From assembly GCF_003288905.1 (NCBI RefSeq), contig NZ_NHYL01000001.1:186001-250000 (forward strand): a stretch of 64,000 nucleotides of DNA, written 5' to 3'. Below are positions 9,788-54,332 of this stretch, piece after piece. This DNA comes from Helicobacter sp. 11-8110. GTDB lineage: Bacteria; Campylobacterota; Campylobacteria; Campylobacterales; Helicobacteraceae. Made by a program: the position numbers and the translations under genes. Each line of letters begins with the position of its first letter. Within the stretch, counting starts at the first letter, position 1. The notes below the pieces were generated by a model. It had not been told where the DNA came from. It worked only from the letters and a program-made list of their open reading frames with translations, and did no database searches.

Positions 9788-12172
9788 ATGGATGAAATGC
9801 AAGAAATATTAGAAGACTTTTTAATCGAAGCTTTTGAGATGATAGAGCAACTAGATCAAGATTTGGTGGAACTAGAAAACAGACCAGAGGATTTAGAATT
9901 GTTAAATCGTATCTTTAGAGTAGCACACACTATTAAAGGTTCGGGATCGTTCTTAAACTTCTCAGTCCTAACCCATTTAACACACCATATGGAAGATGTT
10001 TTAAACAAGGCAAGACATGGGGAGTTAGTCATTACTCCTGATATTATGGATGTTGTCTTAGAATCAATTGATTTTATGAAAAAATTGCTTAATGCAATTC
10101 GCGATGCAGGAACAGATGCTAACACTGGATTAGATTCAGATATTGCTAATGTTGTAGCGCGTCTTGATGCAATTTCTAAAGGAGAGTCTCCACAAGAAAC
10201 AGCACCAGTTGCACAAGAAGCTCCAAAAGCAGAAGAATCCGCACCGCAGACCGCACAAGAAGATGAAGAAGAATTAGATTATTCTAATATGTCCCCTGAA
10301 GAAATTGAAAGCGAGATTGAAAGGCTACTTAATAAGCGCCAAGAAGAAGATAAGAAAAAACGAGAAGAAAAAAAAGCTAAAGGTGAAGTTAGCGATGTTC
10401 AAGCTCCAAAAGAAATTACAGAAACTCCAGCGGTAGCCACACAAGCCCCAAAACCCTCTCCAAAACCTGCCGAACCAAAGCCGCAGGCAAAGTCAGCGCC
10501 ACGACAAGATGATAATAAAACACTTGCCACATCTGTAGAGCAAACTATCCGCGTTGATGTTAAGCGATTGGATAGCTTAATGAATCTAATTGGTGAATTA
10601 GTCTTAGGTAAAAATCGCTTAATTAAAATTTACAATGATGTTGAAGAGCGCTATGAGGGAGAAAAATTTTTAGAAGAGCTTAATCAAGTCGTTGCTTCCG
10701 TATCTATGGTAACAACAGATATTCAACTTGCGGTTATGAAAACAAGAATGTTACCTATTGGAAGGGTGTTTAACAAATTCCCTAGAATGGTGCGCGACCT
10801 TTCAAGAGAACTTGGAAAAAATATTGAATTAGTTATTAGTGGTGAAGAGACAGAACTTGACAAGTCTATTGTAGAAGAAATTGGGGATCCATTGGTGCAT
10901 CTAATCCGAAATGCTTGCGATCATGGAGTTGAATCCAAAGAAGAAAGAATTGCAGCTGGCAAAAAGGAACAAGGAACTGTTGAATTAAAAGCCTATAATG
11001 AAGGAAATCACATTGTCGTCGAAATCACTGATGATGGTAAGGGAATGGATCCAGTAATCCTTAAAGCCAAGGCTGTTGAAAAGGGGATAATTAGCGAAAG
11101 AGAAGCAGATAGTATGACTGATAAAGAAGCCTATTCTCTTATTTTTAAAGCCGGTTTTTCTACAGCAAAGGTTGTAACCAATGTTAGCGGACGCGGTGTA
11201 GGTATGGATGTTGTAAAAACAAACATTGAAAAACTTAATGGAATTATTGATGTTGATAGCACTTATGGAGAAGGAACTACCCTAAAGCTAAAAATTCCTT
11301 TAACACTTGCTATTATTCAATCCTTGCTTGTTGGAGTGCAAGAGGAATATTATGCTATTCCGCTTGCCTCTGTTATAGAGACCGTTAGAATCTCTCAAGA
11401 TGAAATCTACACTGTTGAAAATAAAAGTGTATTGCGCCTAAGAAATGAAGTGTTGCCTTTAGTGCGTTTAGCGGATATTTTTGGGGTTGATTCGGTATTT
11501 GACAATGCAGAACAAGCCTATGTTGTCGTTATAGGATTGGCAGAAAATAAAATTGGGGTGATTGTAGATTTCCTCATTGGTCAAGAAGAGGTTGTTATTA
11601 AGTCGCTTGGTTCTTATCTAAAAGGAACAGAAGGTATTGCAGGTGCTACAATCCGCGGAGATGGTAGAGTAACGCTTATTGTAGATATTGCTGCAATGAT
11701 GCAAATGGCAAAACAAGTTAAAGTTAGTATTAGCAAGCTTGCTCAAGAAAGTGAAACTAAAAAAGAAAAAAATTCACCTAGTGATTACCAAGTTTTAATT
11801 GTTGATGATTCAATGACAGATCGAGCGATTATGAAAAAATCTCTTAAACCATTAGGAATTAGTATCTCAGAAGCAACAAACGGCATGGAAGCTCTTGAGA
11901 TTGTTAAAAATGGTGATAAAACCTTTGATGCTATTTTGATTGATATTGAAATGCCAAAAATGGATGGATATACTCTAGCAGGAGAGATTAGAAAATATGC
12001 TAAATTCAAAAACCTTCCTCTCATTGCTGTTACAAGCAGGACAAGTAAAACCGATAGAATGCGCGGAGTTGAATCAGGAATGACAGAATACATCACTAAA
12101 CCTTATTCACCAGAATATTTAATGAATGTTGTTAAGAGAAATATTAATTTAACTATGGAGGTAACCGAATAA
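9788..12172 (+). CDS. cheA: Chemotaxis histidine kinase CheA with C-terminal receiver (CheAY)
   Basis: 794 aa. Domains in order: HPt with phosphorylated His in RVAHTIKGSGSF (H47); an acidic, Pro/Ala/Lys-rich linker (about 130-250); the dimerisation domain; the ATPase (HLIRNACDHGVE N-box, DDGKGMD, GRGVGMDVV G-boxes); a CheW-like regulatory domain; and a receiver with phospho-acceptor D719 in LIDIEMPKMDG. The fused receiver is the epsilonproteobacterial CheAY form and may act as a phosphate sink. The stop overlaps the cheW start (TAATG). Confidence 0.97.
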   Translation: MDEMQEILEDFLIEAFEMIEQLDQDLVELENRPEDLELLNRIFRVAHTIKGSGSFLNFSVLTHLTHHMEDVLNKARHGELVITPDIMDVVLESIDFMKKLLNAIRDAGTDANTGLDSDIANVVARLDAISKGESPQETAPVAQEAPKAEESAPQTAQEDEEELDYSNMSPEEIESEIERLLNKRQEEDKKKREEKKAKGEVSDVQAPKEITETPAVATQAPKPSPKPAEPKPQAKSAPRQDDNKTLATSVEQTIRVDVKRLDSLMNLIGELVLGKNRLIKIYNDVEERYEGEKFLEELNQVVASVSMVTTDIQLAVMKTRMLPIGRVFNKFPRMVRDLSRELGKNIELVISGEETELDKSIVEEIGDPLVHLIRNACDHGVESKEERIAAGKKEQGTVELKAYNEGNHIVVEITDDGKGMDPVILKAKAVEKGIISEREADSMTDKEAYSLIFKAGFSTAKVVTNVSGRGVGMDVVKTNIEKLNGIIDVDSTYGEGTTLKLKIPLTLAIIQSLLVGVQEEYYAIPLASVIETVRISQDEIYTVENKSVLRLRNEVLPLVRLADIFGVDSVFDNAEQAYVVVIGLAENKIGVIVDFLIGQEEVVIKSLGSYLKGTEGIAGATIRGDGRVTLIVDIAAMMQMAKQVKVSISKLAQESETKKEKNSPSDYQVLIVDDSMTDRAIMKKSLKPLGISISEATNGMEALEIVKNGDKTFDAILIDIEMPKMDGYTLAGEIRKYAKFKNLPLIAVTSRTSKTDRMRGVESGMTEYITKPYSPEYLMNVVKRNINLTMEVTE

Positions 12173-49363: not shown

Positions 49364-52300
49364 ATGCACTACATTTCTAAGCCATTACAAGAATTTTTAC
49401 ACACATATACATTACCAAACCCCACGACACAATCCCTTAACACATTTAAAGAACACTTAGATCATTTTTTAGCCCAATGCCACAAACACACCGCGCAAGA
49501 TACAAGCGAGAGTGAGGAATTTCAAAAGAACCTTATTGCAGATTTTTTAAAACAAGCATTTAGCTACCCAAAAATCAACACAAAACATAAAATCGATCTT
49601 GCCATATACGAAGATGATGAAGTCAAGACATTTTTTGAAGTCAAATCCATAGCCAACAAAAGCGAATTCCCCAAAAGCACCCAATCCCTAGATTCCAAAG
49701 CCTTGTATGAAGCCCTGCTGTATTATATGAGAGAACAAAACGAGGGAAATAACAACCTCAAATGTATTCTCTTATGCAATGTAGAATCTTTTTATCTCAT
49801 CAGTGCCAAAGAGTTTGAGAAACTCTCCCAAAACAAAGAATTGCAAAAAGCCTACAAAAATGTCGACAAAAAGCAAGGCAACGACACAAGCACAAAAAAA
49901 TTCTATCAAAAAGCCCAAGAAATCCTAAGCACACTTGATATGGAGATGACTTTTACACATTTTGGGATTAAAGACACCGAGCCTGTCTTGCTATATCAAG
50001 TCTTTAGCCCACATCTGCTACTTGGCTACAAAACCCACATCGATAGCAATGTGCTAAACCAAAACTTCTATGAAGAGCTACTATATATCTTGGGATTAGA
50101 AGAAACAAAAGATGGCGCCAACAAACTCATCAAACTTAGCGACACGCCAAACACCCTAAGCTACGCGATAAGAGAAAATTTAGGGCTAGATTGCGTGCGA
50201 GATTTTGAGAGCATATTTGAGCTTATCATCACATGGAATAACCGCCTTTTATTCTTGCGTTTGTTAGAATCTATGCTGCTAAGCTTCAAACATATCCCAA
50301 AGCCCTTTTTGGATTCAAGCGTGATAGAAAGCTTTGCCAAGCTAAACACACTCTTTTTTGAGATTCTCGCACTTAGAGAAAATGTCCGCAAAAGCATACC
50401 AAAAGAGCTAGATTCTATCCCTTACCTGAACTCAAGCCTATTTGACAAAACCGAGCTTGAAAAGCAAGGCAAAGAAATCAAGCTTTTAGATTCAAAGCCA
50501 TTAGCACTTTATAAAAAATCAATCCTCAAAGACACCAAAAAGCCCCTGCCACTTTTAGAATATCTCTTTGACTTCCTAAACGCTTATGACTTCACCACCA
50601 CCCCAAAAGACATACAAGACAATGTCAAAATAAACCACGACAAACTTATCAACGCCGCCGTATTGGGGCTAGTCTTTGAAAAGCTAAATGGCTATAAAGA
50701 AGGCAGTTTCTACACGCCAAGCTTTATCACAAACTATATGTGTAAGCAATCCCTGCAGCAAGTCGTGATACAGAAGTTTAACACCGCCAAAAATTGGGAT
50801 TGCAAAGATTTACAATCCCTAAAACTAAGGCTAGATAAACTCACAGATTCACCTGATGGCTACAAAGAAGCAAATGAGATATTTGATTCCATAAAAGTAT
50901 GCGATCCAAGCGTAGGAAGCGGACATTTCCTCGTTTCTATGCTAAACAATATGATAGAGCTAAAATTCCACCTAAAAATCCTTTGTGATGAAAACTTTGA
51001 ACGCCTAAAAGACATACAACTACGCCTAGAAAACGATGAGATTGTGCTACAAGATTCTACAGGCAACCCACACATCTACCAAATCCCAAGCCACCAAAAC
51101 ATAGAATCCCACAAACTCCAAAAAGCCATATTCCACAACAAACGCACACTTATAGAATCTTGTCTTTTTGGCGTGGATATAAACCACAATTCTTGCGAAA
51201 TCACAAAGCTAAGACTTTGGATAGAGCTACTGAAATATAGCTACTATATCTTTGAAAATGGCAAAAACACAAACACCCTCCAAACCCTCCCAAACATAGA
51301 CATCAACATAAAATGTGGTAATAGCCTTGTAAGTAATATAGCCCTAGATATGACAAAAGAAAGCCTAGAAAAAGATTTAAAAAATAGACTAAATAGTAAT
51401 GCCACTCTAGAATTTGCAAATGAGATTTTATCCACAATCAATGATATACAAAATAAGCTCCCAAACACCATACAATCTTATAAAGATGCCGTAAATGCTT
51501 ACAAAAATGAGACAAATGCTGAACTAAAATCACTCCATAAGCAACAAATCCAAGATACACAAAAGTTTATCATCTCTATATTTCACAAAACAAGTAAGGC
51601 TTACCAAGATTTCAAAAATACCTTATCTAGTTACCTGCAATGCTATGGCTACAATGGTATTGATAATGCTACTTTACAAGGTAAAAGCTTAGATTCTGCC
51701 TTGAAAACAACTCTAAATGAATATATAATCGCCTTTAATTTCCATAAGAGCCTAGACATACCCAAAGAACCAAAAGGTTTTGTAGAAAAAGAGCTTATAA
51801 CCCTTATAGATTCTATGCAAGAATATGAAAATCTCACGCACGATACAAACACCTTTGAATGGCGCTTTGCATTCCCAGAAGTGCTAGATAACAATGGCGA
51901 TTTTTTGGGCTTTGATTTAGTCATCGGCAACCCACCTTATATCCGCCAAGAAGAGATAAAGCACCTAAAGCCACATCTAAAAAAAGCCTTTAGTATCTAC
52001 AAAGGCACGAGCGATATTTACACCTACTTTTTTGAGCAAGGCTACAAGATTCTAAAGCCAAAGGCACTCCTATCTTTTATCACGAGCAACAAATACACGC
52101 GTGCAGGCTATGGCGAACCTTTGAGGGCATTTATCCTAGCAAACACACAGATTCTACACTACATTGACCTAAATGGCTTAAAAATCTTTGATTCTGCCAC
52201 CGTGGATACAAGTATCATCACTTTTGCAAAGACACCGCCAAGCCAAGATAGCTTTGACTACCTAGCACCTACACAGCCTAGCCTAGATACAGATGAGCTA

Positions 52301-53230
52301 CACGCACAGCCTTTGCACCAAAGTAGCCTAAGCAAAGATTCTTTTATATTCCAAGACCAAGCAAACCAAGCCCTAAAGGCAAAGATAGAAAGCCTTGGCA
52401 CACCGCTAAAAGAATGGGACATTTCTATAAACTATGGAATCAAAACAGGCTACAATGAAGCCTTTATCATAGATAGCGCAAAAAGAGAGGAGATTCTAAA
52501 CAACTGCAAGGATAAAAGCGAGAAGACACGCACAAGCAAACTCATCAAAAAAATGCTACGAGGTAGAGACATCAAACGCTATGGCTATGAATGGGCGGGA
52601 TTGTGGCTTATAAATACGCACAATGGCTACCAAGATTCCAAAGGCAATAAGATTCCGCCTATTGATATAAAGGATTATCCAACGCTAAAAGCTTATTTTG
52701 ATGAGATAGGAAAGAATCACAAAGGAAAAGGCAAGGGGCTTTTTGATAGAGAGGATCAAGGTATCACGCCTTATAATCTTAGAAATTGTGCATATTTAGA
52801 GGAATTTGAAAAAGAAAAGATTGTATGGGCAGAAATGACAAATGCACCATCTTTTATATACGATAATAATAGTTTCTTTATTAATCAAACTTGTTATTTT
52901 TTGATTCACGAACACAATAAATATTTATTAGGAATCTTAAATAGTAACCTGATTCATAATTATATGAAAAGCATATCATCAAATTTAGGCGATGGTGCTT
53001 TTAGATGGATTAAACAATATATAGAAAAACTTCCTATTCCCAAAATAGATTCTACAAACAAAGCCCTAAGCGATGAGATAATAAGCCTAGTAGAGCAAAT
53101 TTTAGATTCCAAAGCCAAAGACCCTACAAAAGACACCAAAGAGCTAGAATCTCACATAGATTCTCTAGTCTATAAACTCTACAATCTAAATGAAAAAGAA
53201 ATAAAATTATTGAAAGGGATAAATGATTAA
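49364..53230 (+). CDS. Type IIG restriction-modification enzyme (Eco57I-like)
   Basis: 1288 aa single-chain enzyme. The N-terminal nuclease is of PD-(D/E)xK type, with D78 in KIDLA and E92-x-K94 in FFEVKS. The adenine methyltransferase core has motif I in DPSVGSGHFLVSM (about 514) and motif IV NPPYIRQEE (about 858), separated by an unusually long insert of about 340 aa containing a coiled, Lys/Asn-rich part. The C-terminal 380 residues would be the target-recognition domain. The ATG follows AAAGGAGG. The frame is intact with no long homopolymer. Codon use (many CTA, AGC, ATA, ACC) differs from neighbours, suggesting transfer. The last 8 nt overlap the RelA/SpoT gene. The recognition site is unknown. 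Confidence 0.9.
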   Translation: MHYISKPLQEFLHTYTLPNPTTQSLNTFKEHLDHFLAQCHKHTAQDTSESEEFQKNLIADFLKQAFSYPKINTKHKIDLAIYEDDEVKTFFEVKSIANKSEFPKSTQSLDSKALYEALLYYMREQNEGNNNLKCILLCNVESFYLISAKEFEKLSQNKELQKAYKNVDKKQGNDTSTKKFYQKAQEILSTLDMEMTFTHFGIKDTEPVLLYQVFSPHLLLGYKTHIDSNVLNQNFYEELLYILGLEETKDGANKLIKLSDTPNTLSYAIRENLGLDCVRDFESIFELIITWNNRLLFLRLLESMLLSFKHIPKPFLDSSVIESFAKLNTLFFEILALRENVRKSIPKELDSIPYLNSSLFDKTELEKQGKEIKLLDSKPLALYKKSILKDTKKPLPLLEYLFDFLNAYDFTTTPKDIQDNVKINHDKLINAAVLGLVFEKLNGYKEGSFYTPSFITNYMCKQSLQQVVIQKFNTAKNWDCKDLQSLKLRLDKLTDSPDGYKEANEIFDSIKVCDPSVGSGHFLVSMLNNMIELKFHLKILCDENFERLKDIQLRLENDEIVLQDSTGNPHIYQIPSHQNIESHKLQKAIFHNKRTLIESCLFGVDINHNSCEITKLRLWIELLKYSYYIFENGKNTNTLQTLPNIDINIKCGNSLVSNIALDMTKESLEKDLKNRLNSNATLEFANEILSTINDIQNKLPNTIQSYKDAVNAYKNETNAELKSLHKQQIQDTQKFIISIFHKTSKAYQDFKNTLSSYLQCYGYNGIDNATLQGKSLDSALKTTLNEYIIAFNFHKSLDIPKEPKGFVEKELITLIDSMQEYENLTHDTNTFEWRFAFPEVLDNNGDFLGFDLVIGNPPYIRQEEIKHLKPHLKKAFSIYKGTSDIYTYFFEQGYKILKPKALLSFITSNKYTRAGYGEPLRAFILANTQILHYIDLNGLKIFDSATVDTSIITFAKTPPSQDSFDYLAPTQPSLDTDELHAQPLHQSSLSKDSFIFQDQANQALKAKIESLGTPLKEWDISINYGIKTGYNEAFIIDSAKREEILNNCKDKSEKTRTSKLIKKMLRGRDIKRYGYEWAGLWLINTHNGYQDSKGNKIPPIDIKDYPTLKAYFDEIGKNHKGKGKGLFDREDQGITPYNLRNCAYLEEFEKEKIVWAEMTNAPSFIYDNNSFFINQTCYFLIHEHNKYLLGILNSNLIHNYMKSISSNLGDGAFRWIKQYIEKLPIPKIDSTNKALSDEIISLVEQILDSKAKDPTKDTKELESHIDSLVYKLYNLNEKEIKLLKGIND

Positions 53231-54332
53231 TATAAGCGAGGATAAACTTAAAACTATAAGTGGGAATAAACTTAAGACTATTGGGAGAAAAATAAAGAAT
53301 AACGAAGAACTGACAAATGAGGAACAAGATTGTTTGTCTTATTGGTTAAATTTACATTTTAAAGTTATGAAAAAGATGAACAATCATTTATCGATTAAGT
53401 TAAAAAAACTAAAGATAAGAAATTACATTATAGCTAAAAGAACCAAAAGATTAGAATCTATTTCCTTTAAATTGCAAAGATATCCAAATTTGGCTCTTGA
53501 TAGAATACAAGATATAGCTGGAATGAGAATTATATGTGATAGTATAGAAGATGTTAATTTAATAAGAGATGAACTAAAAAAACATTATCAAAAAAATACT
53601 AATGTTTTTAAATATAATAGCATGAGTGATGATATAAATAAACCCAAAGATGATGGTTACAGATCATGCCATTTGATATTTACAAATATTGAAACGAAAT
53701 GCAAAGTAGAAATTCAGATTAGAACAAAATTACAACATTCATGGGCAACAGCTGTTGAAATTATAGATATGGGAAATAATTCTAAAATTAAACAAGGTAA
53801 TGGAGGGGCTGTCTATAAAGATTTTTTTAGGTTAAGCAGTGTTTTATTCTCATATCTAGAAAAAACAAATGTTATGGAGCAATATAAAAGTTACGATTTA
53901 AAAAAAACATATTATTTTTTAAAAAAATTATATACAAAACACAATATATTAGAATTTCTCTCCGCATTAGTGATTTCAAATGAGCATATTATTAGAAATG
54001 CTAGTAAAAAATTTTATTTTGTAATTAGTTTGAATTATAGTGAAAAAAAAATTCATATTGATGGCTTTTCAAAAGATAACTTAGATAGCGCGAGAAAACA
54101 TTATAACGATCTAGAAAAAAATAACAATATTGATGCAGTATTGGTTTCTTTGGATAATCAAAAAAAAATTAAACAAGCCTATCCTAATTATTATCTTGAT
54201 AGTAGTGTTTTTATAGAAAATATTACAAAAAATGAAGATACTATAAAATATTCCTTTTACGAGAAGTTGTGCTACCATGTCTCGTATATTTATAAATATA
54301 TTAAAACTCCAAATATAAAGCAAATCTTATAA
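53223..54332 (+). CDS. RelA/SpoT-domain protein, probable accessory alarmone synthetase
   Basis: 369 aa. The synthetase domain (about 60-180) has the expected residues: R73, K75, S79 and K83 in AKRTKRLESISFKLQR; D97 in IQDIAGMRII; GYRS 145-148 with the nucleotide-stacking Tyr; E163 in EIQIRT; and H172/W174. There is no HD hydrolase, TGS or ACT domain, so it should make but not degrade (p)ppGpp or a related product. Residues about 200-369 match nothing I know. The gene is far richer in A/T than the restriction gene. Its ATG lies 8 nt inside that gene, with AAAGGG 5 nt upstream. A toxin-type synthetase (toxSAS/CapRel-like) is one reading; no antitoxin gene follows. Confidence 0.8.
   Translation: MINISEDKLKTISGNKLKTIGRKIKNNEELTNEEQDCLSYWLNLHFKVMKKMNNHLSIKLKKLKIRNYIIAKRTKRLESISFKLQRYPNLALDRIQDIAGMRIICDSIEDVNLIRDELKKHYQKNTNVFKYNSMSDDINKPKDDGYRSCHLIFTNIETKCKVEIQIRTKLQHSWATAVEIIDMGNNSKIKQGNGGAVYKDFFRLSSVLFSYLEKTNVMEQYKSYDLKKTYYFLKKLYTKHNILEFLSALVISNEHIIRNASKKFYFVISLNYSEKKIHIDGFSKDNLDSARKHYNDLEKNNNIDAVLVSLDNQKKIKQAYPNYYLDSSVFIENITKNEDTIKYSFYEKLCYHVSYIYKYIKTPNIKQIL

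Follow-up and report, generated by a model that had tools for sequence, protein, structure and literature searches.

CapRel proteins are a known phage defence of the fused toxSAS toxin-antitoxin kind, with CapRelSJ46 and CapRelEbc as examples (PMC9712102, PMC11578894, PMC13423816), and the toxin-core and neutralising residues of the SJ46 protein were named by Zhang et al. 2022 (PMC9712102). Toxins are also found in type I and type III restriction-modification (R-M) loci, where they have been repeatedly replaced (Makarova et al. 2012, PMC3506569). In type IC R-M loci such as EcoprrI, the gene for the translation-stopping effector PrrC is tightly integrated with the R-M locus. Recombination at R-M genes changes modules in H. 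pylori, where TRD exchange has been termed 'domain movement' (PMC3077401, PMC3983042); there, specificity domains move within or between R-M genes. Table 2 of PMC8713573 lists, for strains CAMSA2002/2038, an AAA ATPase in one and a pentapeptide-repeat gene in the other beside the Cj0031-type R-M gene; the table lists this difference between neighbours without interpreting it, and describes neither a CapRel nor a slot.

The locus described here lies in a window of 64,000 nucleotides of Helicobacter DNA, the whole stretch that was analysed. It combines a type IIG R-M gene of the Eco57I kind, likened by enzyme kind to Cj0031 of C. jejuni (PMC4889913), with a gene whose product resembles CapRelSJ46 in full-length similarity (~29%), domain order, catalytic and neutralisation residues, and best structural matches. 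Unlike known CapRels, which are single genes (that of SJ46 is in a temperate phage), the window gene starts inside the R-M gene. Analogous to the PrrC loci, a putative translation-stopping effector gene is tightly integrated with an R-M locus; unlike them, the R-M system is a single type IIG gene, the effector is unrelated to PrrC and presumably self-inhibited, and the cargo is fixed at one junction by the 3' end of the R-M gene itself. Whereas specificity domains move in H. pylori, whole accessory genes behind the R-M gene appear to change in the R-M family of the window. We consider it probable, with good confidence, that a Cj0031-like type IIG R-M gene has a slot at its 3' end and that the CapRel-type toxin-antitoxin occupies it as exchangeable cargo. 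The features of the locus are as follows.

49364 to 53230, plus strand: type IIG R-M gene, Cj0031-like, 1288 aa (open reading frame, domain and PADLOC matches)
53003 to 53230, plus strand: R-M tail, the last 75 codons and the stop (tail HMM), a conserved module at the end of which the cargo gene starts
53212 to 53218, plus strand: Shine-Dalgarno-like GAAAGGG for the cargo, within the R-M open reading frame and 4 nt before the cargo ATG
53223 to 53230, plus strand: overlap ATGATTAA, 8 nt, containing the cargo start codon and the R-M stop codon
53223 to 54332, plus strand: predicted CapRel-type fused toxin-antitoxin gene, 369 aa (PADLOC PDC-S33, 302 bits; sequence and fold matches)
53436 to 53750, plus strand: RelA_SpoT (toxSYNTH) core, with R73, R102 and Y146 corresponding to SJ46 R79, R116 and Y155
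54180 to 54191, plus strand: YPNY neutralisation motif, residues 320-323, corresponding to SJ46 Y352-Y355 (motif function from PMC9712102)
54391 to 54429, plus strand: putative scar, KKTAQKNSIVPN and stop, the last codons of a pentapeptide-membrane cargo, 61 nt behind CapRel (the intact gene of G004 ends in KTARKNSIVPN and stop)

The R-M protein contains DUF7149 in its N-terminal part, DUF7814, an Eco57I methyltransferase (MTase) domain with NPPY and a TaqI_C specificity domain, and the PADLOC type IIG profile matches it over its full length with 1369 bits. MTase and specificity domains and an endonuclease end are found in one chain, as is usual for type IIG enzymes. A phase-variable poly-G tract is a feature of C. 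jejuni Cj0031 and is not required of a type IIG enzyme; the window gene contains no run of five or more G/C and hence no such tract. No second copy of the R-M tail was found in the window's own genome, which rules out a cassette store of that form there.

The ORF coordinates confirm what the first-pass annotation had noticed, namely that the R-M gene ends inside the start of the RelA/SpoT gene with 8 nt shared, and the ribosome site that it had placed within the R-M gene is present there as GAAAGGG. Its claim that the two genes are coupled is in keeping with the junction, which predicts coupled translation: ribosomes that finish the R-M frame would be expected to re-initiate on CapRel in the same message, because both the junction and the ribosome site come from the R-M tail. 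Promoter and terminator consensus scans of the window locus gave signals at or near the shuffled level, and the CapRel gene may have a separate promoter. The overlap taken alone was rejected as evidence, because neighbouring genes on the same strand overlap or abut in 29% of cases in related loci, which is the background rate. The ATGATTAA junction also precedes a TIR cargo (G009) and an AAA_13 cargo (G166), and in another genus (G276) a CapRel gene overlaps an R-M tail by 8 nt, ATGATTAG, in which the stop codon is TAG.

A domain search of the 369-aa protein returned one RelA_SpoT synthetase domain and no hydrolase domain, as in fused CapRels. The best solved relatives in phmmer were 7ztb/9erv, the CapRel of Salmonella phage SJ46, matched over residues 13-341, and the identity to this tested CapRel is about 29%. 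The adenine-coordinating R79 and R116 and the G-loop Y155 of SJ46 are all conserved, as are K151 and G154. In the C-terminal antitoxin part of the same ORF, the YXXY motif is present as YPNY (Y352 and Y355 kept), V338, L339 and A351 are retained, and A341 is replaced by serine, likewise in most relatives. The AlphaFold model of the protein (pLDDT 87, pTM 0.84) has a CapRelSJ46-like fold. In a Foldseek search of the PDB, CapRel 7ztb/9erv ranked first (TM 0.61-0.66), with an rmsd of 9-11 Å over the full length that may reflect either a domain placement unlike the open crystal form or an unsure placement in the model. The best solved relatives, the kept residues and the Foldseek ranking identify the protein as a fused CapRel by sequence. 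Given the conserved catalytic residues, the YPNY motif and the full-length CapRel match, the protein is read most plausibly as a fused toxin-antitoxin, which would pyrophosphorylate tRNA once a phage protein opens it; we infer its toxicity, tRNA target and trigger by analogy with CapRelSJ46. The intact synthetase core, the lack of a hydrolase and the kinship to CapRel had all been recognised in the first-pass annotation, but the stand-alone alarmone synthetase that it described is better called a fused CapRel-type toxin-antitoxin.

The CapRel gene has 23-28% G+C and its flanks mostly 36-42%. Viral origin from close relatives was considered and rejected: a close-relative scan of IMG/VR found none encoded there, and the phage matches to the window CapRel were distant CapRels (SJ46) and other synthetases. 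Plasmid matches were all <60%.

To survey the R-M 3' end, an HMM of the last 75 R-M residues was applied to 60 stretches around R-M ends and a few earlier loci, and a gene was called coupled when it started within -35 to +3 of the tail stop. The R-M family of the window is present in 143 of 397 Campylobacterota genomes (E 1e-60 or better). Of 72 long R-M-type ends, 39 were followed by a coupled gene, as were 8 of 16 short detached copies of the tail, 47 in total; with one more at +25, the 48 cargos form 14 clusters without detectable mutual similarity. The larger clusters are pentapeptide-repeat (22), kinase-like (6) and MmcB-like/cll (3) cargos; a 396-aa family, OLD/AAA, KAP NTPase, TIR, AAA_13 and CapRel have two members each, and five cargos are singletons. 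Junctions of the TAATG/ATGATTAA type occur in the slots of the window's R-M family. A ribosome-binding site (RBS) lies in the tail at 44 of the 47 coupled junctions, compared with 6 of 33 uncoupled R-M ends and 7% of random 12-mers, counts that took the nearest ATG as start and may slightly favour RBS presence. The cargo changes 19 times on the R-M tree, compared with 19.3 for shuffled labels, and 18 times on an MTase-only tree (18.4 shuffled), where the R-M tree includes long branches and the loci, coming from related genomes, are not independent. The five members of the window's own R-M clade have five different cargos. As judged from sequence, the conserved feature is the slot at the 3' end of the R-M gene, not the R-M/CapRel pair.

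PADLOC matches (1e-3) were obtained in 8 of the 14 cargo clusters; 2 of 8 neighbouring window genes, used as a control, also match, so that the hits support a defence role of the cargos and do not prove it. None of three tested pentapeptide-membrane cargos, the commonest kind, had a PADLOC match, and that all cargos are defence genes is therefore not established. The slot cargos across Campylobacter and Helicobacter relatives are many and different; they often appear defence-like and would be freely swapped.

The pentapeptide cargos (L056:11878-13320 and 21 more) have a hydrophobic, membrane-like end, as read by eye, and the C-terminus KT(A/I)RKNSI(V/I)P is kept in most. The kinase-domain cargos are a family of ~390 aa from several genera (L095, L103, L104, L112, L119, L122), with a Pkinase match of 1.1e-26 in L119. 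At L124:4400-6844, behind an AAA_13 cargo, a detached R-M tail leads into a second cargo, a TIR-domain protein of 815 aa.

A comparison with G004, placed in the same species by the software-assigned kinship labels used for all G genomes, bears on the history of the window locus. The same R-M gene is found at the same site, with flanks 98-99% identical, and the place of CapRel is taken by a 480-aa pentapeptide-repeat gene that starts at the R-M stop codon. This cargo, together with the scar behind CapRel, indicates that the slot in the window most likely held a pentapeptide cargo before CapRel took its place. In other genomes, short R-M tail copies lie ahead of second and third cargos, and over 64-180 bp these detached tails have 73-96% DNA identity to another tail of their own locus. 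They resemble both traces left by homologous recombination and sites on which it could act, and from such patterns we infer that cargos are exchanged by recombination.

In the G004 copy of the R-M gene (L056:8161-11878), the coding sequence falls into two frames that overlap near 10136-10284, so that the gene may be non-functional or switched off, with the cargo still intact. G011, G016, G007, G014 and G018 have several incomplete copies of the C-terminal R-M part (specificity and tail) close together, which suggests that not only cargo but also recognition domains are exchanged.

To what extent the R-M/CapRel pair recurs is evident from the distribution of CapRel. A CapRel relative is present in 19 of the 397 Campylobacterota genomes; in the 18 other loci, an R-M gene of the window's family lies within about 8 kb in two (G132 and G276) and the R-M tail directly upstream in one (G276). 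Of the 80 top-ranking CapRel loci in the GTDB genomes, drawn from many phyla, only that of H. pametensis has the window's R-M or tail nearby, and no CapRel was found in 18 other genomes searched of the window's genus. With one further overlapping case (G276) among 18 Campylobacterota loci, the pair does not recur as a unit, and a dedicated R-M/CapRel two-gene system is rejected by this distribution. Since CapRel loci elsewhere almost always lack the window's R-M, CapRel does not need it; its own antitoxin and sensor domain would likewise make the R-M enzyme unnecessary for its control. The first-pass annotation had asked whether the overlap is confined to one genome, which the 8-nt overlap of CapRel and R-M tail in G276 answers in the negative, and whether the RelA/SpoT gene usually occurs without the R-M gene, which it does in the 18 Campylobacterota loci and the 80 best loci. 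Of the two-layer system it proposed, the defence setting holds up; the specific scheme of cleavage followed by arrest is not supported, as the slot holds at least 14 families and the cargo is independent of the R-M tree. Two independent layers that are co-expressed explain the data better than a circuit dedicated to cleavage and then arrest.

A different relation between the two proteins is conceivable by analogy with PrrC/EcoprrI, in which the R-M enzyme would bind CapRel and keep it inactive until phage anti-restriction frees it. PrrC, a toxin that stops translation, is encoded within a type IC R-M locus and becomes active upon inhibition of restriction (PMC12707154; PMC3506569), co-production of R-M and CapRel would suit a complex, and AAA_13 (PDC-S06) genes are found in the same slot. 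However, CapRel has its own YPNY antitoxin domain and occurs nearly everywhere without the window's R-M, cargos dissimilar to it fill the same slot behind closely related R-Ms, and the locus pairs a CapRel with a type IIG enzyme, not a PrrC-family effector with a type I system. As CapRel is presumably self-inhibited, like its tested relative, and the slot accepts unrelated cargos, it is unlikely that the R-M enzyme holds CapRel inactive.

The locus could also have arisen by chance, through a mobile CapRel gene landing behind the R-M gene, with the overlap a matter of operon packing only. Overlaps are common (29%), the gene is A+T-rich and foreign-looking, and the 18 other genus members searched lack it, all of which would agree with such an event. 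What disfavours chance insertion is the recurrence of the junction: the same R-M tail is followed by a coupled cargo in 47 places, with the RBS in the tail, TIR and AAA_13 cargos are again preceded by ATGATTAA, and the TAG variant of this overlap stands before CapRel in another genus. We give chance insertion a low probability. A housekeeping-type small alarmone synthetase, tuning (p)ppGpp in stress and not serving defence, would account for the RelA_SpoT synthetase fold and for a weak NCBIfam YjbM match (47 bits against a cut-off of 320). Against it, it is CapRel, and not RelP/RelQ, that the protein matches best and over its full length, the YPNY antitoxin region is kept, and the genome already has another RelA/SpoT homologue, the only other RelA_SpoT match, in a 716-aa open frame; this reading is very improbable.

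The evidence brought together here is comparative throughout. In the preferred reading, with CapRel as an exchangeable cargo of the slot, R-M and CapRel would be made from one message, CapRel starting at the predicted ribosome site in the R-M tail. The R-M enzyme would cut unmodified phage DNA. By analogy with CapRelSJ46 (PMC9712102), the C-terminal domain with YPNY would block the ATP site of CapRel until a phage protein binds, and the opened CapRel would then pyrophosphorylate tRNA 3' ends, halt translation and abort the infection. The two proteins, made from a shared message, would probably form independent layers. Homologous recombination could swap the cargo, using the conserved R-M tail as one arm and, as the other, the end of the pentapeptide cargo or another flank. 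A broader proposal is offered tentatively, as possible and somewhat short of probable: the R-M 3' end would be a phylum-wide plug-in slot, formed by the tail with its RBS and junction and by stacked, detached tail-cargo cassettes that tail-to-tail recombination moves to first place. Such a slot would keep a changing stock of defence genes whose expression is tied to that of the R-M gene, and its cargos of no known role, above all the pentapeptide-membrane proteins, would be new phage-defence genes.

CapRel defence and toxins in type I and III R-M loci are known; for a cargo slot at a type IIG R-M tail we found no description in a literature search outside which most subscription papers and bioRxiv preprints lay. 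If the slot is real, the junction behind a common Campylobacter and Helicobacter R-M gene would be an address at which phage-defence genes can be found, and would also expose families of no known function. It would explain how effectors come to be tied to the expression of the R-M gene and, if that gene carries a poly-G tract, to its phase variation, and would offer a directly testable case of modular layered immunity, in which strains of one species combine the same R-M with second layers that differ. Long poly-G runs are found right at the R-M stop at L084 near 2019 (G263) and at L133 near 1944 (G367), where slippage could alter the R-M end or the coupling to the next gene.
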